Assembly (NCBI GenBank): GCA_001871075.1
Contig: MNUP01000053.1
Span: 1-29,289, forward strand
Reading direction: 5' to 3'
From: Candidatus Desantisbacteria bacterium CG1_02_49_89
GTDB taxonomy: Bacteria; Desantisbacteria; UBA1551
DNA: 29,289 nt
The position numbers and the translations under genes were made by a program. Within the stretch, counting starts at the first letter, position 1, and each line of letters opens with the position of its first letter. The notes beneath the pieces were generated by a model, which was not told where the DNA came from, did not search any database, and saw only the letters and a program-made list of their open reading frames with translations. Of this stretch, positions 543-29,289 are shown one piece after another.

Positions 543-586
543 TAGTTTACAAAGTTTATATAGTTTACAGAGTTTACAAAGTATAA
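543..586. repeat. half iSTR array, 9-nt unit AGTTTACAA
   Basis: About five imperfect copies of a 9-nt unit (AGTTTACAA, AGTTTATAT, AGTTTACAG and so on) begin directly after the yjbQ stop codon. The complementary arm is missing here, but the same unit forms a complete two-armed element at 6788-6868. Confidence 0.7.
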
Positions 587-630
587 ATCCGTGTTAATCC
601 GTGGCTGAATATTTTTAAGTTCTCGTAAGT

Positions 631-658
631 TCCCTGTAAAAATATCTTTTAACAGGGA
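631..658. other. AT-rich hairpin in the yjbQ-pfkB spacer
   Basis: TCCCTGT pairs with ACAGGGA, and the stem continues inward as A/T pairs after one mismatch. There is no T-tract, so a terminator role is doubtful. Confidence 0.4.
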
Positions 659-730
659 TCTTCGAGCGGGATTCAGACTACTATGATTTTAGCTTTTTAA
701 ATCTCTCTAAAATATTTTTATACTTTCCTC

Positions 731-808
731 AAATCTTACAATCTTAAATCTCTCAATCTCACAATATTGTAATCCGTATGCATCCGATCTTTTAATCCGT
801 TTGCATCT
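731..808. repeat. tandem arrays of AATCTTAC-like and AATCCG/GCATCCG-like units
   Basis: Two adjacent arrays fill the spacer before the sugar kinase. The first (731-768) repeats AATCT(T/C)ACA-like units. The second (769-808) repeats ATCCG with a GCATC spacer and has a close twin at 27547-27589, in front of the FucI-like gene. Both twins end just upstream of a start codon. Confidence 0.6.
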
Positions 809-819
809 ATGGGGATAAT

Positions 820-1734
820 ATGAAGAAATATGACGTAATCGGCGTGGGTTGCTGCGCGTTTGACTGCCTTATGAAGGTCTCAAAAAATCCGGGTCCTGAC
901 GAGAGGATCAGAGCGGGTGATTTCATTATCCAGGGCGGCGGCGAGGTCGGCACAGCCCTGGTCGCTGTTGCGCGCCTGGGCGGAAAAGCGAAATTCATAG
1001 GAAGGCTGGGGAACGATAATTTCGGCGAATTTCTTATTGAAGATTTCAAAAGAGAAGGCGTTGACACAAGCAGCACGATACTTGAGAAAAGAAAAACCAC
1101 AAGGTTCGCCTGCATACTTGTTGACGAAAAGACCGGGAAACGCGGCATCATTTATTCCGAGAAAGGCGTTCCGGGCGCTATGCCTTCTGATATCCGAGAA
1201 TCTGAGATAAAGCAGGCAAAATATCTTCTTGTCAGCCAGGCATCCCCCGGCATAGAGGCGTCTTTGAAAGCCGCAAGGATAATGAAGAAAGCGGGCGGCA
1301 CTGTTGTGCTGGACGCCACAAAGATAATCCCGCAGACAAAAGAGTTCCTGCGCTTAAGCGACGTGATAATCGTGGACGAGGAATTCGCCTGCCTGCTAAT
1401 AGGCGAGAAGAATTATTTCAGGTCCGCGCAGAAAATATTCTCAATGAAGAAAAAAGGGATAGTGGTTGTGACAGCCGGCACAAAGGGAAGCTTCTGTGTT
1501 TCTAAGGAAGGGAAATTCCACACGCAGGCCTTCAAAGTAAAGGCAGTAGATACCACTGGGGCCGGAGACGTGTTCCACGGTGCTTTCGCGCTGGGGCTTC
1601 TGCGCAAATGGCCCCTGCCCTACACGGCGAAGTTCGCTTCCGCGGTCTCGGCGATGAAGTGCAGGTCGCTTGGCGGCCGCGCCGGCATACCGAAACTTGC
1701 CGAAGTGAAGAAATTCCTTAAAATCAGCCACTGA
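820..1734 (+). CDS. PfkB-family carbohydrate kinase
   Basis: A 304-residue ribokinase/PfkB-superfamily enzyme that transfers phosphate from ATP to a sugar or nucleoside in the cytoplasm. The N-terminal glycine-rich motif GGEVGTALVAVARLGG and the C-terminal signature DTTGAGDVFHGAF (residues 244-256) are intact; D250 is the expected catalytic base and the GAG before it forms the anion hole. Length is typical. The start ATG follows GGGGAT at a good distance. The substrate cannot be read from sequence; neighbouring glycosidases suggest a released sugar such as a hexose, pentose or 2-keto-sugar. The stop codon TGA (1732-1734) lies inside the first arm of a repeat element. Confidence 0.92.
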   Translation: MKKYDVIGVGCCAFDCLMKVSKNPGPDERIRAGDFIIQGGGEVGTALVAVARLGGKAKFIGRLGNDNFGEFLIEDFKREGVDTSSTILEKRKTTRFACILVDEKTGKRGIIYSEKGVPGAMPSDIRESEIKQAKYLLVSQASPGIEASLKAARIMKKAGGTVVLDATKIIPQTKEFLRLSDVIIVDEEFACLLIGEKNYFRSAQKIFSMKKKGIVVVTAGTKGSFCVSKEGKFHTQAFKVKAVDTTGAGDVFHGAFALGLLRKWPLPYTAKFASAVSAMKCRSLGGRAGIPKLAEVKKFLKISH

Positions 1735-1842
1735 GTGCACTGAGCTCACTGAGGGTTCTTGTGTAACTCAAACCTTCAGGTTTGATGTCAGGACTAAAGT
1801 CCTGAGTTACAGAATCTCAGTGAATTCAGTGGCTTCAGTGGC
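1727..1842. repeat. iSTR element (9-nt CACTGAG units) with nested palindrome
   Basis: Arm 1727-1753 and arm 1816-1842 are 27-nt inverted copies matching at 22 of 27 positions; each holds three 9-nt units built on CACTGA. The left arm contains the pfkB stop codon. The centre carries the complete 48-nt GTAACTCA element. Confidence 0.85.
1763..1810. repeat. 48-nt GTAACTCA/TGAGTTAC double-hairpin element, copy 1
   Basis: Outer arms GTAACTCA and TGAGTTAC enclose two small hairpins, AACCT-TC-AGGTT and GGACT-AA-AGTCC, separated by TGATGTCA. Copy 2 at 9726-9773 has the same skeleton with different but still paired stems. Confidence 0.85.
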
Positions 1843-1877
1843 GAAAATTGCATTTATCTATCTTTAATGGAGTTGTA

Positions 1878-3584
1878 ATGAGTGAAGAAAAAATAGAAAC
1901 AGTGGCGATGGAGACTTACGCGAGGCGGAGCTTCAATTACCTGAATAACATGGTGGACAAGGACGGGCTGCCCTACTTCAATATTTTCTGGGCAGAGCCG
2001 TCCGAAGCCGCGCACGACTGGCCTGATTTCGGGGACGTGATGTCCAGGCAGCTGCAGGCGGTAGTTATGGCAAGGCACATGACAGGCCAGGCGCTTCCGA
2101 TGGAAAAGGTCTGGCTTGAAAAATCCCTTTCGCTTGTTGACCCGGGAACAGGGTTTCTTTACAGGCCGAAGACTAATTTTTCCGAACACGTGGCTGATAT
2201 GGGAGACGCGGCCCTGACGCTTTACGCCTACGTTACCGCTTACGCTGACAGTAAGGACAGCAACCTCAAAAAAATAATATGCAAAATGACGGATTCCCTG
2301 CTCAAGAAATACGAAGGCAACCTTTCCGAAGGAGCCGGGTTCTTAAGCGGTTTCACGATAAAGAGCCTGATGGCATGCGCGCGTTTCCTGGATTATGAAC
2401 CGGCGCTCAAGCTTGCCGGAATGCTTGTTGACAAAGTTTTCAATGTTGAACCGCTTTTCAGCCCGGATAACACATTCAGGCACGGCGGGCACATGCACGG
2501 GAACCTGCGGACTCTTTCCGGAGCGGCAGACTGGGCGATTTACACGAAGGACCCTGTGATCTTCAGCCGTGTCGACGCTATTTACCGTTACGTCAGAACA
2601 ACAGCTACAAGCTTCGGTTTCCTTCCTGAGGTCATAGGCAGGCAATGCGATATTATCGCGTGCGAGACCTGCGCCGTCATGGATTACCTGAGCACGGTTG
2701 TGACGCTTGCGAACCACGGACATCCCGAATACTGGTCTGACGCGGAAAAGATCGCGAGGAACCACATGATCGAAAACCAGGCAACAGACTGCTCCTGGCT
2801 TAAACCGGACAATTCAAAGGAAGACAGCCCTCAGTTCTCGTGGCGGGACGTGGACAAAAGGATGATCGGCGGTTACGCGGGATGGAGCTCCCCCAACCAT
2901 ATACTCGCGACAAGGGAAAGCCTGAACGCGCAGTGGGACACCCCCGAGACGCACGACAAGACACGGGCGTTCCAGAACTGCTGCGGCGGCTCAGGCACGC
3001 ATGCGTTTTTCATTATTTGGAAGAACGCGTCCAGGTTTGACAACGGAACGCTTTCCGTCAACATGCACATAGACAAGCTCCTGCCCCAGGCAGAGATAAG
3101 AGGTTTCCAGCCGTACAAAGGCCTGCTTACGATATCACTGAAAGAATCCTGCAATGTGAGGGTAAGGATACCGGAATTTGTGAAGCCGAATGAAATGAGG
3201 GCGGAATCCGATAAGGGAAAGATCGAGCCCAGGCAGTGGGGCAATTATCTTGAGCTCGGAAAAAGAAACGCCGGAGAAAATCTGAAAATAACTTATCCCC
3301 TGCCGGTCTATACGGAGGAATTCTTAATAGGAAATCCGGGGTTCAAGCAGTACAAATACCGCGCGGCCTGGAAGGGCGACACCGTCGTGAAAATGGAGCC
3401 GCTTGGCAATGACTATAAAACGGGCTATTCGGATTTTGATAAAAAGGAAGTCCCTGTTTTCTACGGCAAGGAAGGCCCGGGTCCGCTGTACCAGAGAGAT
3501 CATATGCTCAAGGACGCGCAGCCCGAACCGAGTGAGCTTTACATGGATACCAGCCCTCTTGATTTCTGGTTTATAAAAGACTGA
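1878..3584 (+). CDS. GH127-like glycoside hydrolase (beta-L-arabinofuranosidase family)
   Basis: A 568-residue (alpha/alpha)6-type protein resembling the beta-L-arabinofuranosidase (GH127/DUF1680) family. Known GH127 enzymes use a zinc-bound cysteine nucleophile held by a Glu-x-Cys motif and a Cys-Cys pair. Here E263-T-C265 (in the run CETCAVMDYLS) and C368-C369 (in QNCCGGSG) are obvious counterparts. The ETC-to-CC spacing is larger than in the best-known family member as I recall it. The C-terminal third (MHIDKLLPQAEIRG and what follows) looks like the usual beta-sandwich. There is no signal peptide, so it probably acts in the cytoplasm on imported oligosaccharides. I chose ATG 1878, with GGAG 5 nt upstream, over an in-frame TTG at 1848 lying just past a repeat. 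The stop TGA is the first three bases of a TGATTACGG repeat. Confidence 0.8.
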   Translation: MSEEKIETVAMETYARRSFNYLNNMVDKDGLPYFNIFWAEPSEAAHDWPDFGDVMSRQLQAVVMARHMTGQALPMEKVWLEKSLSLVDPGTGFLYRPKTNFSEHVADMGDAALTLYAYVTAYADSKDSNLKKIICKMTDSLLKKYEGNLSEGAGFLSGFTIKSLMACARFLDYEPALKLAGMLVDKVFNVEPLFSPDNTFRHGGHMHGNLRTLSGAADWAIYTKDPVIFSRVDAIYRYVRTTATSFGFLPEVIGRQCDIIACETCAVMDYLSTVVTLANHGHPEYWSDAEKIARNHMIENQATDCSWLKPDNSKEDSPQFSWRDVDKRMIGGYAGWSSPNHILATRESLNAQWDTPETHDKTRAFQNCCGGSGTHAFFIIWKNASRFDNGTLSVNMHIDKLLPQAEIRGFQPYKGLLTISLKESCNVRVRIPEFVKPNEMRAESDKGKIEPRQWGNYLELGKRNAGENLKITYPLPVYTEEFLIGNPGFKQYKYRAAWKGDTVVKMEPLGNDYKTGYSDFDKKEVPVFYGKEGPGPLYQRDHMLKDAQPEPSELYMDTSPLDFWFIKD

Positions 3585-3618
3585 TTACGGTGATTATTAA
3601 TATGATTACGGTGATTAA
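3582..3618. repeat. half iSTR array, unit TGATTACGG
   Basis: Two copies of TGATTACGGTGATTA, separated by AATA, start on the stop codon of the GH127-like gene. The same unit forms a full two-armed element at 18126-18251, and a short fragment lies at 8328-8342. Confidence 0.7.
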
Positions 3619-3691
3619 AAGCTTTAAGTACGAAAACACATAATTCCACGAAATAGACAGAAGTCGATTAAAATTGAAACACGGAACTTTC

Positions 3692-4525: not shown

Positions 4526-4557
4526 AATTGGCGGGTCTTCGAGAAGCCCTGAGTTAC
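4507..4557. repeat. degenerate GTAACTCA-type element overlapping the TPR gene end
   Basis: TCA-GGGCT at 4507-4514 pairs with AGCCC-TGAGTTAC at 4545-4557, matching the second hairpin and outer arm of the 48-nt element but with a 30-nt loop. The loop contains the TPR stop codon (4523-4525). The stem GGGCT/AGCCC is a third variant of the paired arms. Confidence 0.45.
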
Positions 4558-4561
4558 AGAT

Positions 4562-4637
4562 GCACGATGAACGATGAACGACGCACGATGTTACGAATTA
4601 AACTCTGACACGTTGATACGTTGATACGTTGACACGA
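4562..4637. repeat. two adjoining tandem arrays (7-nt GATGAAC units; 8-nt TGATACGT units)
   Basis: Units of 7 nt at 4562-4589 are followed by AT-rich GAATTAAA and then four 8-nt units TGACACGT/TGATACGT at 4606-4637. The arms do not complement each other, so this looks like halves of two different iSTR elements. The 8-nt array recurs at 9797-9828. Confidence 0.7.
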
Positions 4638-4663
4638 ATTTAAAAAAGAGGGGGTGGTTTAAA

Positions 4664-5110: not shown

Positions 5111-5111
5111 C

Positions 5112-6008
5112 ATGGCTATATTGTTTTTCTTTCTGGCAGTGGTCGTTATTTCGTTTGCCACGGCAAGTATCAAGATAGTGCGGCCGTGGGAGAAGGGCCT
5201 GGTTGAAACACTGGGCAAATATCAGACAACCGTATCCAGCGGCCTGACAGTGCTATTTCCCATCACCCAGCACATGATGAAGGTGGATATGAGGGAGCAG
5301 GTCGTGGATGTCCCGCCCCAGCACGTTATCACCAAGGATAACGTCGCGGTGGAAGTGGACGCCGTTATTTATTACGAAGTGACAGACCCGGTAAGGGTGA
5401 CGTACAACGTCGCGAATTATTACGCCGCTATCACAAAACTTTCGCAGACAAATTTAAGGAACCTTATCGGAGACATGTCGCTGGACGAAGCGCTTACATC
5501 ACGCGAGAAGATCAACACGAAACTGAAAGAAGTGCTGGACGTTGCGACTGACAGGTGGGGAACAAGGGTTACAAGAGTCGAATTGCAGCGCATTGACCCG
5601 CCGGAAGACGTGACAAACGCCATGCACAGGCAGATGAAGGCAGAGCGCGAAAAAAGAGCGGTGATCCTTGAGGCGGAAGGCGCGAAGCAGTCCGCGATAC
5701 TGAAGGCTGAAGGAGAAGCAGGAGCGATAAAAACAGTCGCTGACGCGGATAAATACAAGAAGATCACCGTTGCGAAAGGCGAGGGTGAAGCGATCCAGAC
5801 GGTTTATGACTCTATACACAGCGGGAAGCCTACCAATGACCTTATCGCGATAAAATATCTGGAGACGCTTGAAAAGATCGCGAACGGAACAGCCACAAAG
5901 ATATTCATGCCGCTTGAAACCTCCGGAGTGCTGGGAAGCCTTGCCGGCATAAGAGAACTGTTCAAGGGCGAAAAGCCGGCAGTCAAACCCGAGGAACAGA
6001 AGAAGTAG
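5112..6008 (+). CDS. SPFH/band-7 (stomatin, paraslipin-type) protein
   Basis: A 298-residue SPFH-domain protein. An N-terminal membrane anchor (residues about 2-20, AILFFFLAVVVISFATASI) is followed by the SPFH domain (KIVRPWEKGLVETLGKYQTT to about residue 170) and an alanine/glutamate-rich coiled coil (MKAEREKRAVILEAEGAKQ). It ends with the paraslipin tail (IKYLETLEKIANGTATKIFMP). These proteins oligomerise into cages on the membrane and organise microdomains or guard membrane proteases. The ribosome site AAAGGAGG lies inside the end of the NfeD gene, and the genes are 1 nt apart. A clear intrinsic terminator follows after a TCATTGCG palindrome. Confidence 0.92.
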   Translation: MAILFFFLAVVVISFATASIKIVRPWEKGLVETLGKYQTTVSSGLTVLFPITQHMMKVDMREQVVDVPPQHVITKDNVAVEVDAVIYYEVTDPVRVTYNVANYYAAITKLSQTNLRNLIGDMSLDEALTSREKINTKLKEVLDVATDRWGTRVTRVELQRIDPPEDVTNAMHRQMKAEREKRAVILEAEGAKQSAILKAEGEAGAIKTVADADKYKKITVAKGEGEAIQTVYDSIHSGKPTNDLIAIKYLETLEKIANGTATKIFMPLETSGVLGSLAGIRELFKGEKPAVKPEEQKK

Positions 6009-6035
6009 AGAACGCTTATCGCATTTTGGGTAATC

Positions 6036-6138
6036 TGTCATTGCGAGCCGAAACCGCGAGCGAAGCGTGGCGGGCAAGCGAAGCAATCTCGTTAGGGGAT
6101 TGCCTCCCCGCCACGAATATTGGCGGGTCGCAATGACA
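6036..6138. repeat. TCATTGCG palindromic element, copy A
   Basis: Terminal inverted repeats TGTCATTGCGA and TCGCAATGACA enclose further inverted segments containing AAGCAATCTC. The same element occurs at 7192-7274, 15891-15957 and 29125-29209. No ORF is inside, so it is non-autonomous and REP- or MITE-like. Confidence 0.85.
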
Positions 6139-6163
6139 CAAGGATTGGAAGTCAATGGCATAG

Positions 6164-6207
6164 AAAATGCAAGTTTTTCCTAAAAAAGACGGAAAACTTG
6201 CATTTTT
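6164..6207 (+). terminator. intrinsic terminator after the NfeD/SPFH pair
   Basis: A 16-17 bp stem (AAAATGCAAGTTTTTCC against GGAAAACTTGCATTTT) with a short loop runs into a T-tract. The A-rich left side makes it potentially bidirectional. Confidence 0.88.
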
Positions 6208-6293
6208 TATGTTACTTATATAATATTTGAAATACTTGAATATATGGGAATAATAGCAAAGGGCATAAAAAAGAGCGGATTCCTCAATTTATA

Positions 6294-6442: not shown

Positions 6443-6467
6443 TGGTTTATCTTTTGGAGGTGCTTTT

Positions 6468-6788: not shown

Positions 6789-6868
6789 AGTTTACAGAGT
6801 TTACACAGTTTACAGAGTACTTAAAAAAACTTTGTCAACTTTGTCAACTATATAAACTTTGTAAACTG
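6788..6868. repeat. complete iSTR element, 9-nt unit AGTTTACAG
   Basis: Units AGTTTACAG/AGTTTACAC begin on the stop codon of the DUF1844 gene (left arm about 6789-6818). After an AT-rich centre come complementary units AACTTTGTC/AACTTTGTA (right arm about 6829-6867). The acylphosphatase start is 8 nt past the right arm. Confidence 0.85.
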
Positions 6869-6876: not shown

Positions 6877-7149
6877 ATGCGCCGAGCGCATTTGATAATA
6901 AGCGGCAGGGTGCAGGGAGTGGGTTTCAGGTACAGGGCCCGCGACATCGCGGAAGGCCTGGGCCTGAAGGGGTGGGTCAGGAACCTGCCTGATGGCAGGG
7001 TTGAAACGATCGCTGAAGGCGAAGACGCCCCCGTAGAAGAGTTTGTCAAATACTGCCGCAAGGGCCCTCCATGCGCGCACGTAAGCGGCGTGGAGATAAG
7101 CGAGGAAGAACCGCTGAATGATCTTGCAGGTTTTGATATAGAATATTGA
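6877..7149 (+). CDS. acyP: acylphosphatase
   Basis: A 90-residue acylphosphatase, full length for the family, which hydrolyses carboxyl-phosphate bonds such as those in acetyl phosphate or 1,3-bisphosphoglycerate in the cytoplasm. The signature GRVQGVGFRYR is present with catalytic R18, and the second motif GWVRNLPDGRVE carries catalytic N36. The start ATG lies just past a repeat element with no strong ribosome site visible. The stop TGA is contiguous with the next repeat arm (ACCACGAGATT). Confidence 0.95.
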   Translation: MRRAHLIISGRVQGVGFRYRARDIAEGLGLKGWVRNLPDGRVETIAEGEDAPVEEFVKYCRKGPPCAHVSGVEISEEEPLNDLAGFDIEY

Positions 7150-7318
7150 ACCACGAGATTCCACAGATTTCCACCAGATTACTGTCAGGCAGTCATTGCG
7201 AGTGAAACGAAGCAATCCGAGAGATTGCTTCACCTGCCCGCCACGCTTCGCTCGCGGCTTCGGTTCGCAATGACAGAAGGAATATAATCGTGTGTAAATC
7301 TCGTGAAATCGCGTGGTT
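7149..7318. repeat. iSTR element (CCACGAGATT units) with nested TCATTGCG element
   Basis: The left arm (7149-7181) repeats CCACGAGATT/CCACAGATTT-like units. The right arm (7285-7318) is its imperfect inverse. Between them sits a full TCATTGCG palindrome (7192-7274). Confidence 0.8.
7192..7274. repeat. TCATTGCG palindromic element, copy B
   Basis: GTCATTGCGAG to CGCAATGAC, nested in the centre of the CCACGAGATT element. Confidence 0.85.
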
Positions 7319-7674: not shown

Positions 7675-7680
7675 AAAGAA

Positions 7681-7782
7681 TTATGAGTTATGAGTTATGA
7701 GTTATGAATCAACAGCAAGGAATTAATTTAAAATAGAATCCTTGTTTTTGACTCATAATTCGTAATTCATAACTCATAATTA
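7681..7782. repeat. iSTR element, 7-nt unit TTATGAG
   Basis: Four 7-nt units TTATGAG make the left arm (7681-7709) and TCATAACT-type units the right arm (about 7751-7782). The loop (AAGGAATTAATTTAAA ... TCCTTG) is itself an inverted repeat and closely matches the loop of the 19576-19680 element. Confidence 0.88.
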
Positions 7783-9652: not shown

Positions 9653-9674
9653 AATAACCACGGAGACACGGAGG
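9653..9674. repeat. half array AACCACGGAGACACGGAGG
   Basis: ACCACGGAG/ACACGGAGG units of 9 nt with no complementary arm in this spacer. It is interrupted by the CAGTCGCC element. Confidence 0.6.
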
Positions 9675-9676
9675 CA

Positions 9677-9716
9677 CAGTCGCCTCATCGGCGACCCGCC
9701 GAAGTGGCGGGAGACT
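9677..9716. repeat. CAGTCGCC hairpin element, partial copy
   Basis: Matches the left two thirds of 6385-6442, including the GTCGCC...GGCGAC hairpin and the CCGCCGAAG segment. The right terminal GGGCGACTG is missing. Confidence 0.65.
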
Positions 9717-9725
9717 ACCTTTGAT

Positions 9726-9773
9726 GTAACTCAAGGCTTCAGCCTTGATGTCAAACCTAAAGGTTTGAGTTAC
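9726..9773. repeat. 48-nt GTAACTCA/TGAGTTAC double-hairpin element, copy 2
   Basis: Same skeleton as 1763-1810 (outer arms, TC and AA loops, TGATGTCA linker), but the stems are AGGCT/AGCCT and AACCT/AGGTT. Both stems still pair perfectly. Confidence 0.85.
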
Positions 9774-9828
9774 AATAATATTCCTTGTTGTTGCTCTGAC
9801 ACGTTGACACGTTGACACTTTGACACGC
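9774..9828. repeat. half iSTR: conserved loop plus four 8-nt TGACACGT units
   Basis: The loop-like sequence ATTCCTTGTTGTTG, shared with 7681-7782 and 19576-19680, leads into four 8-nt units (9797-9828) of the type seen at 4606-4637. The left arm is missing, replaced by the 48-nt element. Confidence 0.7.
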
Positions 9829-9841: not shown

Positions 9842-10630
9842 ATGAAAGTGTTTATTTTCACGGACCTCGAAGGGGTTGCGGGAGTCGCGGACTTTGAATC
9901 CCAGACATACCCGGGAGGAAGGTATTACGAACAGGCGAAACACCTGCTTACCCAGGAAACAAACGCATGCGTAGAAGGATTGATTGAAGCGAAAGCAAAG
10001 GAAATAATAGTGCTGGACGGCCACGGGTGCGGAGGAATAATCCCGGACGAACTTCATAAGGAAGCGCGGCTTATATCAGGCACAGTGATGTCTCCCCCGT
10101 TCGGGCTCGACAACAGTTATGACGCGGTGATACTGCTCGCGCACCATGCCATGGCAGGCGTTGAGGACGGCAACCTGAACCACAGCTATTCGTCAACCGG
10201 GATCTTCAATATGTGGTTCAATGACGAACTTGTCGGCGAGATAGGGCTTGAATTCGCGCTTGCGGGGTATTTCGGGATACCCATAATACTGGTCACAGGC
10301 GATTCAGCGGCATGCAGGGAGGCAAAGAGTTACATAAAAACCGTGGAAACCGTGGTCGTGAAGGAAGGCATAAACAGGCGGACCGCGAACGCGCTTTCAC
10401 CCGGGCTGGCAAGGGAGCTCATAAAGGCAAAAGCAAAAACAGCCCTGAAGAGCATAAAGGAAATGAAGCGTTACAAGCTGCTGAAGCCGCCCTTTTCACT
10501 CAAGATCCAGTTTATCTCGTCGGATTCAACCGAGCGCCATGTTACAAAGCCGGGCTGCCTGAGGATCGACTCAAGGACCGTGCAGTTCAAATCAGACGAT
10601 TTCCTCAAGATGCTTCAATTATGGATCTAA
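9842..10630 (+). CDS. M55-family D-aminopeptidase (DppA-like)
   Basis: A 262-residue zinc aminopeptidase of family M55. The B. subtilis DppA ligand pattern is retained: D8 and E10 in TDLEGVAG, H61 in DGHGCGG, H101 or H102 in LLAHHAMAG, and E133 in ELVGEIGLEFA. The family cleaves N-terminal D-amino acids, for instance from D-Ala peptides released during peptidoglycan turnover. Length is normal. The ribosome site GGGAGG sits 6 nt before the ATG, just past an 8-nt repeat array. No peptide transporter is adjacent here. Confidence 0.92.
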   Translation: MKVFIFTDLEGVAGVADFESQTYPGGRYYEQAKHLLTQETNACVEGLIEAKAKEIIVLDGHGCGGIIPDELHKEARLISGTVMSPPFGLDNSYDAVILLAHHAMAGVEDGNLNHSYSSTGIFNMWFNDELVGEIGLEFALAGYFGIPIILVTGDSAACREAKSYIKTVETVVVKEGINRRTANALSPGLARELIKAKAKTALKSIKEMKRYKLLKPPFSLKIQFISSDSTERHVTKPGCLRIDSRTVQFKSDDFLKMLQLWI

Positions 10631-10752
10631 CGACCGTCGAGCGTCGCGCGTCTTACGTCATACGTAAATCTTTAAAACGTACGACCTACGACGTAAAACG
10701 TTTGACGGTATTCACGTACGACTTACGACGTATGACGTACGACGGACAAAGA
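10629..10752. repeat. large iSTR element of 7-nt ACGT-containing units
   Basis: Left arm units end in CGT (CTTACGT, CATACGT). The centre is AAATCTTTAAAA. Right arm units read ACGTACG, ACGTATG, ACGACGT and similar. The array runs from the dppA-like stop codon to the ribosome site of the dehydrogenase gene. It is the longest such array in the window. Confidence 0.85.
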
Positions 10753-11998: not shown

Positions 11999-13033
11999 AT
12001 GAGGAATTTTTTAATAAATTTTCTACCATATGCTCCAGTTAAAGAAGATATAAAAATAGGAAAGGTTCTACTTTGGCCATTTTATAAGAAAAAAGATGAA
12101 TATATTCCAGATGATACAATAAAGACACATCTTGAAATAATTTTCAAACAATATATTTGTACGGAAACACTTAAATCACTTAATGAAATTACCATTATAT
12201 CCCTTGATGATAAAATAGATTTTAAAGAATTAAACCCGAACGAAATGGAAGAAGTGAGATCTGCGACTTCAATTTTGTCCTTTTGCTCAATTGTAAACAG
12301 AGATTTTTCTAATCCAGTGTCCTCTGATAATTTTCAAATTTTTCTTCAACGGTTCAAGCCTGGCGATGACAAAATTGCTCCTTCGCATGGAAGCTGGATA
12401 CGGCACAATGTTATTAATTTAAAGATTCAGGACGCTAAATTCATTACCCCTTTTCATATTTGCATTCCACCTTTCGGCATAGATTACAATGAGAAAATTT
12501 TAAGAGGTTTGGAAAAAGTTTTGATGAATAGAAGCAAGCAAGAAGAGGCGAGAACCTTACGAGCATTAGAATGGTTCAATTATGCCAACATAAATATAGA
12601 TGGATTTAACTATTTTACCCGTATTATATTGATGTCCATTGCTTTTGAGATACTTCTCGGCGGGTATCAAGGCAAATTTGAATTTATGGAAAAAGTCAAA
12701 GGACTTATGTGTGAAACCAATGAATATACAGTAGAAAGAGAAATTCCTGATAAAGATGGTAAACAGGTTAAAGAGTGCCACACAGACAAGGAGTGGTTTG
12801 CTTACGATTTTTACAATCTTAGAAATAAAATTGTACATGGCAACAAATTAGAAGAAACTAATGAAAAACACTCTAGCGGGGAATTCTATTTTGAACTCGC
12901 CATTTCATTTTTTAAAGAATGCATGAAAAAGACACTATCTACCCTTTCTTATTATAAATATGATGCAATGGATTCGATACTGTGGGTACTAACAGCTGAA
13001 AAAATAAGCCAAAAAAAGAGAGCAGCTAAGTGA
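11999..13033 (+). CDS. Apea-like HEPN-domain protein
   Basis: A 344-residue protein encoded in markedly AT-rich DNA unlike its neighbours. I do not recognise the N-terminal 190 residues. The C-terminal part reads as an Apea-like HEPN domain: the helix ALEWFNYANINIDGFNYFTR, the segment IILMSIAFEILLGG, and then FYNLRNKIVHGN, which contains the R275-N-x3-H280 motif of HEPN ribonucleases. HEPN proteins with this motif are often metal-independent RNases in toxin-antitoxin, abortive-infection or CRISPR-linked systems. The next gene starts on GTG overlapping this stop by 4 nt, so the two are translationally coupled. The ribosome site is poor. The HEPN call is by motif and would need a profile search. 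Confidence 0.72.
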   Translation: MRNFLINFLPYAPVKEDIKIGKVLLWPFYKKKDEYIPDDTIKTHLEIIFKQYICTETLKSLNEITIISLDDKIDFKELNPNEMEEVRSATSILSFCSIVNRDFSNPVSSDNFQIFLQRFKPGDDKIAPSHGSWIRHNVINLKIQDAKFITPFHICIPPFGIDYNEKILRGLEKVLMNRSKQEEARTLRALEWFNYANINIDGFNYFTRIILMSIAFEILLGGYQGKFEFMEKVKGLMCETNEYTVEREIPDKDGKQVKECHTDKEWFAYDFYNLRNKIVHGNKLEETNEKHSSGEFYFELAISFFKECMKKTLSTLSYYKYDAMDSILWVLTAEKISQKKRAAK

Positions 13034-14790
13034 GCATATCATTTGAAGAAATTCAAAAGGCGCTTGGTCTCCCTGCCGAAATTAACGAATGGGAATTCAA
13101 GGAAGCGGCATGGGCTCTGCCTAAGAGTATATGGGAGACCATATCTGCATATGCCAATTCAGGAATTAGCGGATGCATTCTACTTGGTGTAAAACACAAA
13201 GGAAAGGTATTTGAGGTTTCAGGAATTACAGATATTGAGAAAGTTCAAAATGAGTTTACTAGCCAGATAGACCATGTCTTCAATGTCCCGCTTTCTTCCT
13301 ATATTCATATTGAACCAAAGCCTTATAATGATAAATGGATGCTCGTTATTTTAACTGGAGAACCCCCCAAGAGTCTTAAACCTGTTTTTATTAAAGAAAA
13401 AAGTCCTATAAAAGGCGGATACAAGCGTGTAGGTGGAAGCGACCTTCACTTAGTGGATAAAGATGTAGAGCGTTTTTATCAGGAAAGAAGTATCCAGCCA
13501 TACGAATTTTCTCCTATGCAATCTGTAAAAATAAATGAATTGGACCCAGCAATAATTCAAATCTATAAAAAATTACTCAGTCTCAGGGAGCCGGACAGCA
13601 AAATATTATTATATGACGATAATCGACTCCTTCAAAGCCTTAAAGCAGTTGTTTACGATGAAAATAATAAGAGATGGATTCCGACCATAGCCGGAGTTCT
13701 GCTTTTTGGTTCCGCGGAAGCCATTGCAAGAGAATTCCCTGCTTTTAAAGTTGATATAATAGACATAGACGGGACCGAATGGGTTCCTGATTATAAGGAG
13801 CGTTTTAAAAGCTATCCTTCCTATCAAGGTTCGCTTTTAACAATAGCAGCCGAAATCCTTGAAAGAATGCGCAAGGATATCGCGATTCCCTTTCAGTTAG
13901 AACCTCAAACCTTAACAAGAATTGATGAAACACCTCAGATGACATCCCTTCGAGAGGCCATCAGGAATGCCTTAATACACCAGGATTATCAAAAGAGGAA
14001 TCCAACACAGATTCGGAGGTTCAACGACCGGATTGAAATTGAGAACCCCGGATATTCTTTAAAACCTATTGAGCGTATAGGAGAACCAGGTTCTGAATTA
14101 CGTAATCCTATTATTGCAAGGGTCTTTAGTGATATCGGGTGGGCTGAAGAAAAGGGTTCCGGAATCCGAGCTATGCAAGATGCAATGGACAAAGCGGGTT
14201 TGACACCCCCTATTTTTGAGAGCGATACCGGTTCAAACCTTTTCCGCGTCACTTTTCGCTTACATCATTTTATGACCGAAGAAGACCTTGATTGGTTGCA
14301 GGAACATACCGAAGGTCATAATCTCTCTGATGAGGAAAAAAAAGCGCTTATTTTAGTGCGCCATACTGGCAGCGTCAATAATCTAACATACTGCCAGATA
14401 AACCATACAGATACCTTGACTGCGAGCAAGAGTTTAGCAAGACTCAGGGATAAAGGTTTTTTAGTTCAATCCCAGGTGAAAGGGCCCGGAACCTATTATG
14501 TACCTGCTGAGACGCTCCCAACACAAACCCCTGATTTATTCCATCCAGAACCTATAAAGAAAACCTATAAAGAAAAAGAAGAATCTATAAAGAACCGGAT
14601 TGCGGAACTATGCCGCACTCCTCATTCTGCTAAAGAGCTATCACTTAAATTAGGGAAGAATAGAGTATATCTTGTCATAAACTATCTCTCAAAAATGGTG
14701 AAAGAGGGAAAATTAAGACGCACAAATCCTGCTCCAAAAGCAAGGAATCAAAAATATTTTACAGAAAATAACAGAAATCATAAAAAGTAG
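13030..14790 (+). CDS. AlbA_2 / GHKL ATPase-like / winged-helix regulator-type protein
   Basis: A 586-residue protein with the COG2865 layout. An N-terminal Schlafen-type AlbA_2 domain (EWEFKEAAWALPKSIWETISAYANS, CILLGV) runs to about residue 150. A GHKL/HATPase_c_4 module follows, with N-box R308-E-x2-R-N313-A-x2-H317, the strand IEIENPG (near 336-341) and the G-box EEKGSGIRAM (373-382). Helix-turn-helix segments lie at about 425-490 and 525-570. Such proteins are annotated as predicted transcriptional regulators and recur near defence genes. Overlap with the HEPN gene suggests a functional pair. The last nine or so codons (TENNRNHKK) are made of 9-nt repeat units that belong to the left arm of an iSTR element. 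Confidence 0.85.
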   Translation: MSISFEEIQKALGLPAEINEWEFKEAAWALPKSIWETISAYANSGISGCILLGVKHKGKVFEVSGITDIEKVQNEFTSQIDHVFNVPLSSYIHIEPKPYNDKWMLVILTGEPPKSLKPVFIKEKSPIKGGYKRVGGSDLHLVDKDVERFYQERSIQPYEFSPMQSVKINELDPAIIQIYKKLLSLREPDSKILLYDDNRLLQSLKAVVYDENNKRWIPTIAGVLLFGSAEAIAREFPAFKVDIIDIDGTEWVPDYKERFKSYPSYQGSLLTIAAEILERMRKDIAIPFQLEPQTLTRIDETPQMTSLREAIRNALIHQDYQKRNPTQIRRFNDRIEIENPGYSLKPIERIGEPGSELRNPIIARVFSDIGWAEEKGSGIRAMQDAMDKAGLTPPIFESDTGSNLFRVTFRLHHFMTEEDLDWLQEHTEGHNLSDEEKKALILVRHTGSVNNLTYCQINHTDTLTASKSLARLRDKGFLVQSQVKGPGTYYVPAETLPTQTPDLFHPEPIKKTYKEKEESIKNRIAELCRTPHSAKELSLKLGKNRVYLVINYLSKMVKEGKLRRTNPAPKARNQKYFTENNRNHKK

Positions 14791-14825: not shown

Positions 14826-15809
14826 TTGGAATATAGAGAACTGGGAAAAACTGGAACAAAGGTTTCCGCGGTCGGGTTCGGCTGCTGGGCGATGGGGGCA
14901 AGCGGCTGGGGCGATGTGGATGACAGCGAATCGATAAGCGCGGCGCGCAGGGCGCTTGACCTGGGCATAAATTTCTTTGACACAGCGCCGGGATACGGGT
15001 TCAACCACTCCGAGAAGGTCCTCGCGAAAGCCCTTGAAGGAAAGCGCAAAGAAGCTTTCCTGGCGACAAAATGCGGCATAGACTGGGAGGAGAAGACCGG
15101 GAAGATCTGGAAAAACTCAAGCCCCGCTTATATCCGGAAGGACTGCGAGCGCAGCCTGCAAACGCTGAACACGGACCGCATAGACCTGCTGCAGGTGCAC
15201 TGGCCTGACGAGAAGGTCCCTATCTCCGATACTATGGGAGAGCTGGCAAAACTGCAGAAGGAAGGGAAGATAAAATATATCGGTGTTTCCAATTATTCGG
15301 TAGCGCAGATGAAGGAATGCCGGAAATATATTGAGCTTGTAAGCCTCCAGCCCCCTTTCAGCATGCTCAACCGGGGTGTTGAGCAGGAAATACTCCCCTT
15401 CTGCCTCGAGCAGAAGATATCCGCGCTGGCATACAGCCCCATACAGCAGGGCCTGCTCACCGGCAAATACACCAGGGACGCGGTTTTCCCCGAGAATGAC
15501 ATGCGCTTACACAACCCGATGTTCAAGGGCGTTATTTTTGAAAAGATCATAGCGGCGGTTGAAGAATTCAAGAAAATGGCTAAGGGATACGGCAGGACAA
15601 TGACCCAGTTCGCGATAAACTGGGTTCTGTGCAACCCGGCCCTGACCGTCGCGATAGTCGGGGCGAAGAAACCCGCGCAGGTTGAGGAGAACGCGGGCGG
15701 TGCGGGCTGGAAGATAAGTGATGAGGACCTGAAAAAGACATACGAGATACTCGACAGGCTCCAGCAGGAAATAATGCGGCAGTTAGCCGCCCAGAATAAA
15801 AACAAATAA
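14826..15809 (+). CDS. aldo/keto reductase
   Basis: A 327-residue NAD(P)H-dependent aldo/keto reductase of the single-domain TIM-barrel family. The start is TTG 14826 with GGAGG 5 nt upstream; an in-frame GTG at 14799 would translate the repeat arm. The catalytic tetrad is visible as D52, Y57, K82 and H125 (FDTAPGYG, ATKCG, LLQVHWPD). The GxSN segment YIGVSNYSVAQM and the cofactor-binding region AIVGAKKPAQVEENAG are intact. It resembles the group acting on sugars and general aldehydes. Its base composition returns to that of the metabolic genes, so it probably once followed the polyol dehydrogenase directly. Confidence 0.9.
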   Translation: MEYRELGKTGTKVSAVGFGCWAMGASGWGDVDDSESISAARRALDLGINFFDTAPGYGFNHSEKVLAKALEGKRKEAFLATKCGIDWEEKTGKIWKNSSPAYIRKDCERSLQTLNTDRIDLLQVHWPDEKVPISDTMGELAKLQKEGKIKYIGVSNYSVAQMKECRKYIELVSLQPPFSMLNRGVEQEILPFCLEQKISALAYSPIQQGLLTGKYTRDAVFPENDMRLHNPMFKGVIFEKIIAAVEEFKKMAKGYGRTMTQFAINWVLCNPALTVAIVGAKKPAQVEENAGGAGWKISDEDLKKTYEILDRLQQEIMRQLAAQNKNK

Positions 15810-15980
15810 ACCACACGATTCCACTCCCTACATGTTTCTACGAAACATAACCGTGGGAGCAGGCAGATTTTCACGCGATTGGAACCACGCTGTCATTGCG
15901 AACAAAGTGAAGCAATCTTGTTTGGATTGCTTCGTCGTTTCACTCCTCGCAATGACATATCGTTTGTAATCTCGTGGCTA
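15808..15980. repeat. iSTR element (CCACACGATT units) with two nested inserts
   Basis: The left arm AACCACACGATTCCACT (from 15808) is interrupted by a small insert (about 15826-15863, hairpin ATGTTTC-TAC-GAAACAT at 15832-15848). It resumes as AGATTTTCACGCGATT, then meets a TCATTGCG element (15891-15957). The right arm is 15958-15980. The same host family is at 7149-7318. Confidence 0.75.
15891..15957. repeat. TCATTGCG palindromic element, copy C
   Basis: TGTCATTGCG to CGCAATGACA, a 67-nt form with inner AAGCAATC/GATTGCTTC pairing, nested in the CCACACGATT element. Confidence 0.85.
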
Positions 15981-16712: not shown

Positions 16713-16713
16713 T

Positions 16714-16780
16714 CAGTTGTCAGTTGTCGGTTGAGAGTTGTCAGTTAACCCACAACCCACAACTCACAACGGATAACTAA
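16714..16780. repeat. iSTR element, 7-nt unit GTTGTCA
   Basis: Left arm units GTTGTCA/GTTGTCG/GTTGAGA start right at the previous stop codon (about 16714-16749). Right arm units ACAACCC/ACAACTC run to about 16780. The next ATG is 8 nt further. Confidence 0.85.
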
Positions 16781-16787: not shown

Positions 16788-18128
16788 ATGAAAGACACAC
16801 TAAAAGAACTGCTGGGGAAAGAATGGAAGTGCGGGTGCGGCAGAACGCACCGCGTGCCCACAAAGGAAATTTACTGCGGCGCAAACGCGAAAGAGCGCCT
16901 GCTCAGGTTCATATTCGCCGAAATGCCCGGGCCTGACGTTGCCGTTGTCGCGGATACGAACACCTTCGCGGTCGCGGGCCAGGCTGTGGGAGAATGCCTT
17001 GCCGAGAACGGGCTGAACGTGAAAGTCCGATTATTCCCGGCAGGCAGAAAGAAACTGAAGGCGGAAAAAGAACTTGCGGAGAAACTCGGTTCTGAACTGA
17101 AGGACTTCCATTTCGCGGTTGCGTGCGGCTCAGGCACTATAAACGACCTTGTAAAATACGCGGCAACGATCGCAAAGATACCGTATATCTCGTATCCCAC
17201 AGCCCCATCCATGAACGGGTATCCTTCTCCGATAGCCGCGCTTTCATACAAGGGCACAAAGAAAACGCTTGCCGCTATACCGCCTGCCGCGGTGATCGCG
17301 GACCTGGACATCCTGCGCAACGCGCCGGAGGATATGATACAGGCGGGCATCGGCGACGGGATCTCAAAATCGGTCTGTAACATCGACTGGGCCGTGTCCC
17401 GTTTCATAAAAAAAGAGTATTTCTGCCCCCTGCCCGGAAAGATGATGGCAGGCGTGATGGGTTTTTACACAGGGAACGCGAAAAAGGCCGCGGGCAGGGA
17501 CCCTGCGGCGATAAAAGGATTGTTTGAAGCGCTTAACCTTGCCGGGGTGTCAATGGTGATCGCGGGTTCGTCCGCCCCGGCTTCAGGCGGGGAGCACCTG
17601 ATCTCCCACTTCCTTGACATGTCCAATTCTTCGAAGGGAAAAGACATGAACCTCCACGGCCGGCAGGTGGGCGTGACGACAGTATTGAGCGCGAAGCTGT
17701 ACGAGAAACTGCTTAAATTAGACACTGATTTACGCAGATTACCACAGTTAAAGAAGCATTACGCCGGAGACAGGCAGACTAAAAAAGAATTCATGAGCCG
17801 CTACGGAAAGAAAATGGCCGGGGAAGTATACCGGGAATTTATGACAAAGTACCTGCCTCCGGACAAGAAAGAAAAGGAGCTGTTGTTTATCCTGAAGAAC
17901 TGGGGGAAGATCAAAGATATGATCAGGAAAAACCTGGTCCCAAGCAAAGTGCTTGAAAAAACCCTCAGGCGATCAGGAGCCCCTGTTTCGTTCACAAAAC
18001 TCGCGATTACAAGAGCGGTATTCCGCAGCGCGATACTTCACGCAAGGGAAATCCGGGGAAGGTACACGGTCCTGGACCTGGCGTATGACGTCGATATACT
18101 TGAAAGTTTTGCAAATGATGTCGTGTGA
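16788..18128 (+). CDS. sn-glycerol-1-phosphate dehydrogenase-like enzyme
   Basis: A 446-residue iron-type dehydrogenase of the glycerol-1-phosphate dehydrogenase (EgsA/AraM) group, reducing dihydroxyacetone phosphate to glycerol-1-phosphate with NAD(P)H and a divalent metal. Seen are the N-terminal CGCGRTHRVPT, the nucleotide loop CGSGTINDLVKY (113-124), YPTAPSMNGY, GIGDGISK, and the metal-binding SAPASGGEHLISH (E269, H270, H274). Bacterial members occur in arabinose operons or feed unusual glycerophospholipids. There is no obvious Shine-Dalgarno. Codons 311-321 (LDTDLRRLPQL) come from a 9-nt repeat resembling intergenic iSTR DNA. The stop codon is the start of a TGATTACAG repeat. Confidence 0.88.
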   Translation: MKDTLKELLGKEWKCGCGRTHRVPTKEIYCGANAKERLLRFIFAEMPGPDVAVVADTNTFAVAGQAVGECLAENGLNVKVRLFPAGRKKLKAEKELAEKLGSELKDFHFAVACGSGTINDLVKYAATIAKIPYISYPTAPSMNGYPSPIAALSYKGTKKTLAAIPPAAVIADLDILRNAPEDMIQAGIGDGISKSVCNIDWAVSRFIKKEYFCPLPGKMMAGVMGFYTGNAKKAAGRDPAAIKGLFEALNLAGVSMVIAGSSAPASGGEHLISHFLDMSNSSKGKDMNLHGRQVGVTTVLSAKLYEKLLKLDTDLRRLPQLKKHYAGDRQTKKEFMSRYGKKMAGEVYREFMTKYLPPDKKEKELLFILKNWGKIKDMIRKNLVPSKVLEKTLRRSGAPVSFTKLAITRAVFRSAILHAREIRGRYTVLDLAYDVDILESFANDVV

Positions 18129-18251
18129 TTACAGTGATTCTAACTGAGATTACGGTGATTATTTTAAGAAAGGACCAAAATCAGGATTTGTTAATCTCGG
18201 TATATTTCAATAATCACTGTAATCATTTTCAAGAAATCACTGAAATCATAT
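18126..18251. repeat. complete iSTR element, unit TGATTACGG
   Basis: The left arm (18126-18166) begins on the G1PDH stop codon and repeats TGATTACAG/GATTACGGT. The right arm (about 18191-18251) repeats AATCACTGT/AATCATTTT. The same unit occurs at 3582-3618. Confidence 0.85.
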
Positions 18252-18273
18252 TTTCGAGTGGAACGAGGAAATA

Positions 18274-19572: not shown

Positions 19573-19575
19573 TAC

Positions 19576-19680
19576 AATTATGAATTATGAATGATGAATT
19601 ATGAGTCAGATGCATGGAATTATATTTAAATTAATACCTTGTTGTTGATTCATAACTCATAATTCATAACTCATAACTAA
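19576..19680. repeat. iSTR element, 7-nt unit ATTATGA
   Basis: Left arm ATTATGA/ATGATGA units (19576-19606), loop ATGGAATTATATTTAAA to ACCTTGTTGTTGA, right arm TCATAAC/TCATAAT units to 19680. It is a close relative of the 7681-7782 element, especially in the loop. Confidence 0.88.
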
Positions 19681-23694: not shown

Positions 23695-23755
23695 ATCGCA
23701 CCGCTACGGCTGCCAGTCGAGCAAGCTCGACCACTACACCACTTACACGTCTACA
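23686..23755. repeat. AGCGGT/ATTTAT hairpin element, minus orientation
   Basis: GTGCG-ATAAAT-CGCAC (23686-23701), followed by ACCGCT, is the reverse-complement relative of 21011-21032. CGAGC-AA-GCTCG at about 23719-23730 forms a second hairpin. The whole stretch looks like one intergenic element. Confidence 0.6.
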
Positions 23756-23778
23756 AGGGGTGGGGGAAAAAGACAAAA

Positions 23779-25251: not shown

Positions 25252-25258
25252 TAAAGAC

Positions 25259-25334
25259 GCAAACCTACCCGCCCTGCGCAAAGGCAGGGCGAGGTCTCGC
25301 CCCGACGTAGTCGTGGCGGAAAGGTTTGCCCTAC
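25259..25334. repeat. GCAAACCT/AGGTTTGC element
   Basis: Inverted ends GCAAACCT and AGGTTTGCCCTAC enclose the strong hairpin CGCCCTGC-GCAAAG-GCAGGGCG. A related copy is at 22382-22430. Confidence 0.7.
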
Positions 25335-25365
25335 AAAAAACCGCAAGAATTTCAAGGAGATAAAA

Positions 25366-27306: not shown

Positions 27307-27601
27307 AACTTTCCCCCTGTAGCTGCTGCGCAGCTCAACGCAGGGACCTTCGGGTCAGAGCCGAGTCGATGACCCTACGGCACGAAAACACTCCGCCCGT
27401 CTTTCAGCGGGCGAGACTTCGCCCACCTATAAGGATGGGCGAGGAAACTACGAAAACACGAAATTAACCACACGATTGTCCCAAGGGGACCTCTTTAAGG
27501 TTTATGAGAGAAAAATCGGGTAAAAAAACAGAGATTTGTTACGGCAGTATCCGCATGCATCCGCATTATTTAATCCGTTTGCATCCGAAAAAGGAGGAAT
27601 G
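27307..27601. repeat. spacer packed with small hairpins and repeat fragments
   Basis: No gene is seen. It holds AGCTG-CTGCG-CAGCT, CGCCCG/CGGGCG and CGCCCA/TGGGCG hairpins lying between two CTACGGCACGAAAACAC / CTACGAAAACACG segments, then AACCACACGATT, a GTCCC-AAG-GGGAC palindrome (27479-27491), and the ATCCG array (27547-27589) matching 769-808. Confidence 0.6.
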
Positions 27602-29008
27602 ATGAAAAAGGCGTGTCTGGGAGTGATCATCGGCAACAGGGGCCTGTTCCCCGGATATCTTTCCGAACAGGGAAGGAAGGAGATACTTGGGGTCCTGAAA
27701 AAGCAGGGGATCGATACTGTTATAATCCCCGAGAACCAGGCGAAATACGGGGCTATTGAGAACCTGAAGGAGGCGAGAAGGTGCGCGGACCTCTTCGGCA
27801 GGAACCGCGGCAAAATAGATGGGATACTCATAGCGCTTCCGAATTTCGGGGATGAAAGGGCTGCGGCGGAGGCAATAAGGCTTTCCGGCCTTAACGTGCC
27901 GGTGCTTGTGCAGGCGTATCCGGATGAACTCAGCAAGATGGACGTGAAGCACAGGCGGGACAGCCTTTGCGGGAAATTTTCGGTCTGCAATAACCTGAAC
28001 CAGTACGGCATCCCGTTCTCGCTTACAAAGCTGCATACCGTGGATCCGTCTTCAAAGGATTTCGGAGCTGACCTGGACTGGTTCGCGGGAGTGTGCCGCG
28101 TGGTCAAGGGCATGCGAAGCGCGAGGGTCGGCGCGATAGGCGCAAGGACCACCCCGTTCAAAACCGTGCGTTTCGACGAGAAACTGCTTGAGGGAAACGG
28201 CATATCCGTGGAAACGATAGACCTGCTTGACATAATTGTCCGCATCGGGAAAATGAAAGAAACGGACAAGGGCGTGCAGGCTGAGATCAGGGCGATGAGG
28301 GGCTACTGCCCTTCCTCGCAGATCCCCAAAGAAGCAATGCTTAAAATAGCAAAACTCAGCGCGGCTGTAAAAAAATGGATAGCCGAGAACGAGCTTGACG
28401 CGTGTTCCATACGCTGCTGGCCTGAGCTGCAGGATTACCTGGGCGTGTTCCCCTGCTCTGTTATGAGCGCGCTTACAAATTCCCTGCTGCCCACAGCCTG
28501 CGAGGTGGACGTGATGGGAGCCCTTGCCATGTACGCGCTGCAGCTTGCCAGCGGGATCCCTTCCGGGATCTTTGACTGGAACAACAATTACGGGGATGAC
28601 CCGGACAAGCTCGTGCTCTTCCACTGTTCGAACGCCCCGAAATCAATGCTTGCCGACCCCTGCCTCAGCTATAACGCGATACACGCGAACGTGCGCGGCG
28701 ACACCGAATGCTCGTTCGGCACCTGCGTTGGCAGGGTAAAGCCCGGGCCAATGACTTACGCGCGCATTTCCGACACGCCAGGATGCCTTAGTGCCTGTAT
28801 CGGAGAGGGAGAGTTCACGGATGACAAGCTCGATACGTTCGGCGGAGTGGGCGTGGCGAAAATAAAAAATATGCAGGAGCTCCTGCGGTTCCTGTGCAAT
28901 AACGGGTTCGAACACCACGTCGCGATGAGCAAGTCGCAGGTCGCGGGCGTGCTTGACGAGGCGTTGTATAATTATATGGGCTGGGAAGTGTATTACCATA
29001 ATAAATAA
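27602..29008 (+). CDS. L-fucose/L-arabinose isomerase-like protein
   Basis: A 468-residue protein of the L-fucose isomerase-like superfamily, enzymes that interconvert aldoses and ketoses with Mn2+. Likely metal ligands are E275 (CWPELQDYLG), D303 (ACEVDVMGALAMYAL) and H438 or H439 (FEHHVAMSKSQ). FDWNNNYGDD and LFHCSNAP are also family-like. It is shorter than classical FucI and divergent, so the true sugar is open; distant members act on other deoxy- or sulfo-sugars. I use ATG 27602, with AAGGAGG 4 nt before it, rather than the adjoining ATG at 27599. A pfkB-type kinase elsewhere in the window could act after it. Confidence 0.82.
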   Translation: MKKACLGVIIGNRGLFPGYLSEQGRKEILGVLKKQGIDTVIIPENQAKYGAIENLKEARRCADLFGRNRGKIDGILIALPNFGDERAAAEAIRLSGLNVPVLVQAYPDELSKMDVKHRRDSLCGKFSVCNNLNQYGIPFSLTKLHTVDPSSKDFGADLDWFAGVCRVVKGMRSARVGAIGARTTPFKTVRFDEKLLEGNGISVETIDLLDIIVRIGKMKETDKGVQAEIRAMRGYCPSSQIPKEAMLKIAKLSAAVKKWIAENELDACSIRCWPELQDYLGVFPCSVMSALTNSLLPTACEVDVMGALAMYALQLASGIPSGIFDWNNNYGDDPDKLVLFHCSNAPKSMLADPCLSYNAIHANVRGDTECSFGTCVGRVKPGPMTYARISDTPGCLSACIGEGEFTDDKLDTFGGVGVAKIKNMQELLRFLCNNGFEHHVAMSKSQVAGVLDEALYNYMGWEVYYHNK

Positions 29009-29012
29009 CAAC

Positions 29013-29092
29013 AGATCCTAGATCCTGGATGCTAGATCCTGGATCGAGGATTTATTTAAATAAATTCCTTCATCCAGGATCCAGTATCTAGT
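29013..29092. repeat. iSTR element, 7-nt unit ATCCTGG/ATCCTAG
   Basis: Left arm heptamers ATCCTAG, ATCCTGG, ATGCTAG (29014-29045), loop AGGATTTATTTAAATAAATT then CCTT, right arm ATCCAGG/ATCCAGT from 29071. The right arm appears split by a MITE-like insertion and resumes after 29257 as AGCCTGG. Confidence 0.85.
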
Positions 29093-29253
29093 GTGGTGTC
29101 TCTAACAGATCTTTACATTTGGGCTGTCATTGCGAGGAGTGTTAACGACGAAGCAATCTCGACCTAAAAATCGAGATTGCCACGCTCCCTTTGGTCGCTC
29201 GCAATGACAACTCAAAGCAGAATCAAATGTCAAGGGATTTATGCGACACCATA
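29092..29253. mobile_element. MITE-like element with CTAG target duplication
   Basis: About 162 bp with inverted ends TGTGGTGTC and GACACCATA. The left end with its CTAG (29088-29120) and the right end (29225-29257) match at 24 of 33 inverted positions. CTAG flanks both sides (29088-29091 and 29254-29257), consistent with a 4-bp target duplication in the heptamer array. It encodes no transposase and carries a TCATTGCG element in its centre. Confidence 0.72.
29125..29209. repeat. TCATTGCG palindromic element, copy D
   Basis: TGTCATTGCGAGGAG to CTCGCAATGACA, with an inner AGCAATCTCGA / TCGAGATTGC inverted pair. It lies inside the MITE-like element. Confidence 0.85.
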
Positions 29254-29289
29254 CTAGAGCCTGGCAACTAATTCATATACCGAGGGGAA

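Follow-up and report, generated by a model that had tools for sequence, protein, structure and literature searches.

Short intergenic elements with a common plan were identified in Candidatus Desantisbacteria bacterium CG1_02_49_89 (genome G000; 2.48 Mb in 150 contigs) and are described here for contig MNUP01000053.1 (contig C7), whose whole stretch of 29,289 nucleotides is called the window. A complete element consists of two convergent polar arms (three to five tandem words of 7-10 nt) and an AT-rich quasi-palindromic core. The best-sampled class, which has the word TTATGAR (class A), has spread as whole units to about 40 mostly intergenic places. Several classes have one core in common, and chimeras occur whose halves, taken from different classes, meet at the core centre and mostly still point inward. 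With roughly even confidence, these sequences are read as mobile elements that are short (about 80-130 bp), non-coding and non-autonomous, with polar exchangeable ends and a separate class for each word.

Genome-wide array counts cover 1.9 Mb of G000, and array units, classes and polarity rest on Tandem Repeats Finder consensus units together with a word list of our choice. Gene boundaries are crude longest open reading frame calls. The sole comparison genome at order level, G001, is a distant relative.

Class A elements were dispersed as whole units

The class A element at 7680-7781 carries an arm of four TTATGAG units, the core CAACAGCAAGGAATTAATTTAAAATAGAATCCTTGTTTTTG and an inverted TTATGAR arm (no strand is assigned to this or any other element below). 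It was recognized by repeat finders and direct reading, by its genome-wide family and by a match to the core model. With this element as query, 80 rows over both strands were obtained, corresponding to about 40 copies of ~100 bp each. The 42-nt core model, which was built from TTATGAR elements and has a consensus without base pairs and is thus a sequence model only, gave 81 rows (both strands) in G000 and no match in G001.

The two arms of one class A element were less similar to each other (0.836) than arms taken from different elements (0.880), and all 200 permutations gave a higher within-element value. A typical copy has a GATGA-type third unit in one arm that is absent from the other, an asymmetry between X-arm and Y-arm. 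Because this asymmetry must be inherited, class A elements were copied as whole elements and not made in place as hairpins. Local origin, in which slippage and intrastrand template switching turn a short array into a hairpin spacer by spacer, so that the loops are original spacer DNA, is thereby excluded for class A in G000, as it also is by the common core. As an explanation for the elements in general it is considered unlikely, and it is further weakened because it should give inward and outward arms equally, while outward TTATGAR arms numbered zero in six genomes (see below).

Three spacers of G000 were compared with their orthologs in G001, and none of the three contained the element there. 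The spacer between the MgtE-type and Nramp genes, which contains a second class A element (TTATGAA; 19575-19678), is 117 nt long in G000 vs. 20 nt in G001, and the adjoining protein end and start are unchanged. The FeADH-MgtE spacer measures 145 nt vs. 6 nt; it contains an element with TGATTACGG arms (18126-18257), which provides the TGA stop codon of the upstream gene. The third spacer, GAPDH-PGK, has about 33 nt in G001 and is clearly longer in G000. The preliminary description had suggested either a slippage or template-switch mechanism or a dedicated element family. For the TTATGAR class, core and arm asymmetry in about 40 copies and absence from the orthologous spacers support the family, and the former mechanism cannot explain this class, although it may play a secondary part in Bacteroidota, in which arms match best within an element and show compensatory changes.

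Arrays are paired and point inward

In total, 1436 non-redundant arrays with a period of 6-11 were identified, of which 746 had period 7, and the stronger arrays were mostly intergenic. For neighbors at most 120 bp apart, pairing was compared with a null of 200 permutations of the units. Inverted same-unit neighbors occurred 78 times vs. 8.1 expected, far beyond chance (the largest permuted count was 17), which confirmed genome-wide the inverted pairing proposed for the window. Direct same-unit neighbors occurred 17 times (7.8 expected).

The polarity of words was counted for neighboring arrays with a gap of at most 60 bp. Neighbors with the same word were inward in 66 cases, outward in none and in line in 10. 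Since inverted pairs with the same word had served to define the direction of each word, this count shows consistency only; the mixed-word count is the independent test. Here, 44 pairs were inward, 3 outward and 38 in line (inward vs. outward, p 2e-10). For words having at least two pairs, the direction was consistent (65 vs. 1). A pattern count of TTATGAR in six genomes gave 24, 21, 67, 11, 5 and 6 inward stretches, some of which overlap one element, and no outward stretch.

Mixed-word pairs cannot form a stem, and therefore the orientation calls for more than base pairing. This bears on the very unlikely reading of the elements as intercistronic RNA hairpins, selected for mRNA stability, processing or insulation of adjacent genes. 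Most elements do lie between co-directional genes, near stop and start codons, the predicted folds are strong (about -31 kcal/mol), and two Hymenobacter spacers, one of them between ribosomal protein genes, retain the hairpin with some compensatory changes. However, the folding energy did not differ between the transcribed and the opposite strand (59 elements, p 0.33), and RNA-level selection in G000 was rejected for this lack of strand bias. Moreover, mixed-word pairs without a stem hold their orientation, the co-directional placement merely mirrors the genome (88% of intergenic arrays vs. 85% of spacer bases), and the element is absent from the equivalent spacers in G001.

Inward polarity in pairs unable to base-pair counts in favor of paired protein sites: the arms would be polar multi-site operators for a nucleoid or global regulator (IHF/HU-like), one word per regulator, and facing arms would bend or synapse DNA. 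Paired octamer and heptamer sites of Geobacter metallireducens have been read in this way; certain sites there fall into two classes at once, and insertion sequences are located at a fixed distance from the sites (PMC2700814). Three HU/IHF-family genes were found in G000 vs. one in G001. Still, the whole core and asymmetric arms were copied and not the sites alone, the arrays show no preference for a type of spacer, as the figures for co-directional spacers indicate, and three HU/IHF genes fail to match the number of words. Protein sites are thus regarded as a rather unlikely explanation.

Different classes have a core in common

The core model derived from TTATGAR elements also matched elements with TGACACGT arms (L138, E 8e-7) and with ATCCTGG arms. 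The class F element of the window (29008-29094; repeat finder, core model) has ATCCTGG-type arms around a core of the class A kind (GAGGATTTATTTAAATAAATTCCTT). A periodic arm followed the half-core motif in 13 of 40 cases, but the reversed motif in only 1 of 29. Where classes are mixed, the two halves join at the core centre TTTAA. In the mixed composite at 9657-9827 (repeat finder, direct reading, core motif), a CACGGAG arm is followed by hairpins of the repetitive extragenic palindromic (REP) type (9725-9775) and by the half core AATAATATTCCTTGTTGTTG with a TGACACGT arm (9797-9827).

REP-type hairpins (GTAACTC..., GCCCGCC...) were located by pattern at the core centre in 28 places. The GTAACTC hairpins are the same as those flanking RAYT genes on contig C23, and therefore the core centre looks like a REP landing site. 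In the window, the element at 1727-1842, detected by repeat finders, direct reading and the shuffle test, has CACTGAG-type arms (1727-1753 and 1812-1842) around a central GTAACTC...GAGTTAC REP hairpin pair (about 1763-1812). In another part of the genome, two near-identical composites of TGACACG, CACAGGTTAACACAGG, AGTTTACA and CACGAATT modules were observed (L060:2420-2570 and 5748-5894), as if composites were copied too.

Spacers of the window

The preliminary description had proposed that at least nine window spacers share one architecture, with a different unit in each. When each of the listed spacers was scored for tandem and inverted repeats against 100 dinucleotide shuffles, the spacers at 1727, 6788, 7681, 16714, 19576 and 29013 exceeded every shuffle on both scores. 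Two spacers were borderline: at 10629 the tandem score was above the shuffles and the inverted score only tied with the highest shuffle, and at 18126 the inverted score was above the shuffles but the tandem score was not. The spacers at 7149 and 15808 were not supported as described, since their strong inverted repeat belongs to another element, TGTCATTGCGA...TCGCAATGACA, that lies between weak CCACGAxATT-type arms. Nor does the unit differ in each spacer. A limited vocabulary recurs: TTATGAR, AGTTTACA and TGACACGT each occur in two window spacers, and all recur genome-wide. This recurrence, the common core and the inward polarity had been overlooked.

Among the remaining paired elements, that at 6789-6867 (repeat finder, shuffle test) has inverted arms of the 9-mer AGTTTACAG and a short AT-rich centre. 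Heptamer arms of CGTCATA/CGTACGA (CGTACG-type) enclose an AT-rich centre at 10629-10747 (repeat finders, borderline in the shuffle test), and at 16713-16778 a TCAGTTG arm faces an AACCCAC/AACTCAC arm (repeat finder, shuffle test). Tandem arrays without a same-unit inverted partner were found in the spacers at 543, 4526, 8178 and 9797. Of these, a AGTTTACAA array occupies 542-585 (repeat finder, shuffle test), and GATGAAC and TGACACGT arrays lie side by side in one orientation at 4559-4636, a heterotypic arrangement (repeat finder, polarity count).

The dispersed TGTCATTGCGA...TCGCAATGACA element has four copies in the window (6036-6138, 7190-7276, 15891-15957 and 29124-29209), two of which are lodged between weak tandem arms. 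One lies at about 7190-7276 within the CCACGAxATT-type arms of 7149-7315 (repeat finders, direct reading, shuffle test), the other within weak CCACACGATTCC / CTCGTGGCT arms at 15808-15976 (repeat finder, direct reading, shuffle test). At 29095-29289, the TGTCATTGCGA copy is nested in a larger repeat with the ends CTAGTGTGGTGTC / GACACCATACTAG. At L028:99, L091:18763 and L142:12126, ends like these lie next to ATCCTGG-type elements or next to the core. No Rfam model matched in the window. At 11999-14790, a gene whose product is HEPN-like (by a weak Pfam match that stays below cut-off) adjoins an SLFN_AlbA_2/RecG C-terminal-like gene, possibly a defence or regulatory pair.

Inward TTATGAR arms in other genomes

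A scan of named genomes yielded at least 116 stretches with inward TTATGAR arms. The phyla among the matches listed were Bacteroidota, Chloroflexi, Planctomycetota, Elusimicrobia, Cyanobacteria, Acidobacteria, candidate phyla and others. In a set of 145 diverse genomes, the short-gap inverted form was present in G000 only (0 of the 144 others). The distribution is therefore patchy, and a universal element is ruled out. TCAGTTG gave nothing in the same set. Among the matches listed in other genomes, same-unit neighbors were inverted in 127 cases and direct in 5, and most of the 127 are due to the search for inverted TTATGAR; the informative subset is the 29 inverted pairs whose unit is a different one, a few of these units being close TTATGAR variants.

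The cores are lineage-specific: one is common to 14 copies in a Rikenellaceae genome, and the loops are mostly different in Hymenobacter. In Parabacteroides sp. PF5-6 (G146; L200, L224 and other loci), TTATGAA arms surround short loops, several of which read GAGAA..AAGGAGATAACCC..TTCTC. This core is specific to the lineage and similar to a ribosome-binding sequence.

Orthologous spacers showed several kinds of change. Two Saprospiraceae species differ at two spacers of their ribosomal operons: a TTATGA hairpin is present at the first spacer in only one of the species, and the second spacer has TTATGAG arms in one vs. GGTTGATTGG-type arms in the other. Hymenobacter retains the element in two pairs of spacers, with different loops and some compensatory unit changes: one pair (L248/L275) had 30 base pairs kept, 5 double changes and 1 broken pair, and the other had 3 double changes vs. 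8 broken pairs. These spacers thus document three kinds of process: gain or loss, replacement of one word by another, and co-evolution in place.

Some of these data agree with local origin. In the other phyla, arms of one element were closer to each other than arms of different elements (0.689 vs. 0.642; 0 of 300 permutations), loops vary between loci and between orthologs, and compensatory changes, as in L248/L275, are possible.

Mobile-element interpretation

Because placement mirrors the genome, folding has no strand bias and target duplication is absent, the reading as mobile non-autonomous elements is favored. No target duplication was seen in 26 elements, of which 5 had at least two matching flanking nucleotides (5.9 expected). 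A trans-acting recombinase or transposase may recognize the polar arms as element ends, the tandem arms supplying repeated binding sites; since no target duplication was seen, it could be a single-strand (HUH-type) enzyme. Chimeras would arise at the palindromic centre, either by exchange or by nested insertion, and words would drift by slippage within each class.

Several points weigh against mobile elements. No mobilising gene was found, and the Y1 transposase genes checked adjoin REP hairpins or ordinary genes. No autonomous copy was seen in the part of the genome that was read, and no transposon with the same ends was noticed there, although no systematic search was made. With one order-level relative only, gain and loss are not told apart. 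Many Bacteroidota loops are unrelated while the arms are kept, which is odd for simple whole-element copying, and the exchange of arms in the second Saprospiraceae spacer is not predicted by plain insertion.

Nine of the ten Y1_Tnp matches in G000 were read: two (contig C23) lie with GTAACTC REPs, one with another hairpin and none with tandem-armed elements. The two on C23, at L294 and L295, are RAYT-type Y1 genes flanked by GTAACTC...GAGTTAC REP hairpin arrays, and the Y1 gene at L296 occurs with CCCCAACAAGTTGGGG hairpins. RAYT was rejected as the mover, since the C23 RAYT genes are flanked by REP hairpins and not by tandem-armed elements.

Tentatively, and with less than even confidence, the elements of different phyla might form one mobile-element superfamily with polar inward tandem-word arms, exchangeable halves, lineage-specific cores and a mover of unrecognised kind, to which the published arrays of a single heptamer word would belong, whole or as fragments.

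Comparison with known systems

Heptamer repeats of cyanobacteria, Beggiatoaceae, Xanthomonas and Geobacter have been reported piecemeal, each with a separate explanation. What links these reports is a common plan, the inward-only rule, whole-unit copying, one core for different words and one word in distant phyla. The spread of words thereby becomes a testable question, namely which enzyme sees the arms, and caution would be advised against taking such spacers for promoters, operators or RNA genes.

Parts of the plan are already known, and the suggestion that no such class had been described does not hold: paired inverted 7/8-mers are published for Geobacter metallireducens (PMC2700814) and heptamer pairs for Xanthomonas (PMC4692102). 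A full-text literature search for the raw words gave no match. A core common to several words, inherited asymmetry, the inward-only rule and a cross-phylum link were not found in the open-licence texts consulted.

In G. metallireducens, paired tandem octamers and heptamers on opposite strands were described as "global regulator binding sites" of classes 1-3, for which IHF/HU binding was proposed but not shown (Aklujkar, 2009; PMC2700814). As in G000, tandem 7-8-nt units are paired on opposite strands at variable distance with several unit classes per genome, and by eye the class 2 consensus TCTCCGTS resembles the CACGGAG/CTCCGTG word found here. That study treats one genome under the IHF/HU reading, and its text mentions neither a core common to the classes nor an inward-only rule, a test of dispersal or a comparison across phyla.

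The GGGAATC arrays of Xanthomonas form 70 and 75 convergent inverted pairs in two xanthomonads, are intergenic and lie at the same place in both species in 83% of cases (Rehm, 2015; PMC4692102). Heptamer arrays in convergent, intergenic pairs are common to both systems, and over-represented intergenic period-7 arrays were also found here. In contrast, a single G-rich word was read there as a G-quadruplex, and no core or copied unit was described. The intergenic TAACTGA heptamers of Beggiatoaceae, Cyanobacteria and Bacteroidetes are likewise one word in distant phyla, with no known mechanism of spread (MacGregor, 2015; PMC4679880), but they are nearly all direct arrays (one inverted case), mostly directly upstream of start codons.

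Miniature inverted-repeat transposable elements (MITEs) are also short and non-autonomous with inverted ends; unlike these, the present elements have no target duplication, and no parental transposon was noticed, no systematic search having been made. REP/REPIN sequences with RAYT transposases are likewise short inverted pairs between genes; they spread as doublets, and a trans-acting enzyme probably moves them (PMC3116915, PMC3733652). REPs are GTAG/CGTC-tagged single palindromes, whereas the arms here are tandem words, and on reading, neither tag occurs at the stem foot in arms or core of classes A, B and F. The likeness lies in the inverted doublet as the dispersed unit, as in class A, whose copies have both core and arm asymmetry in common.

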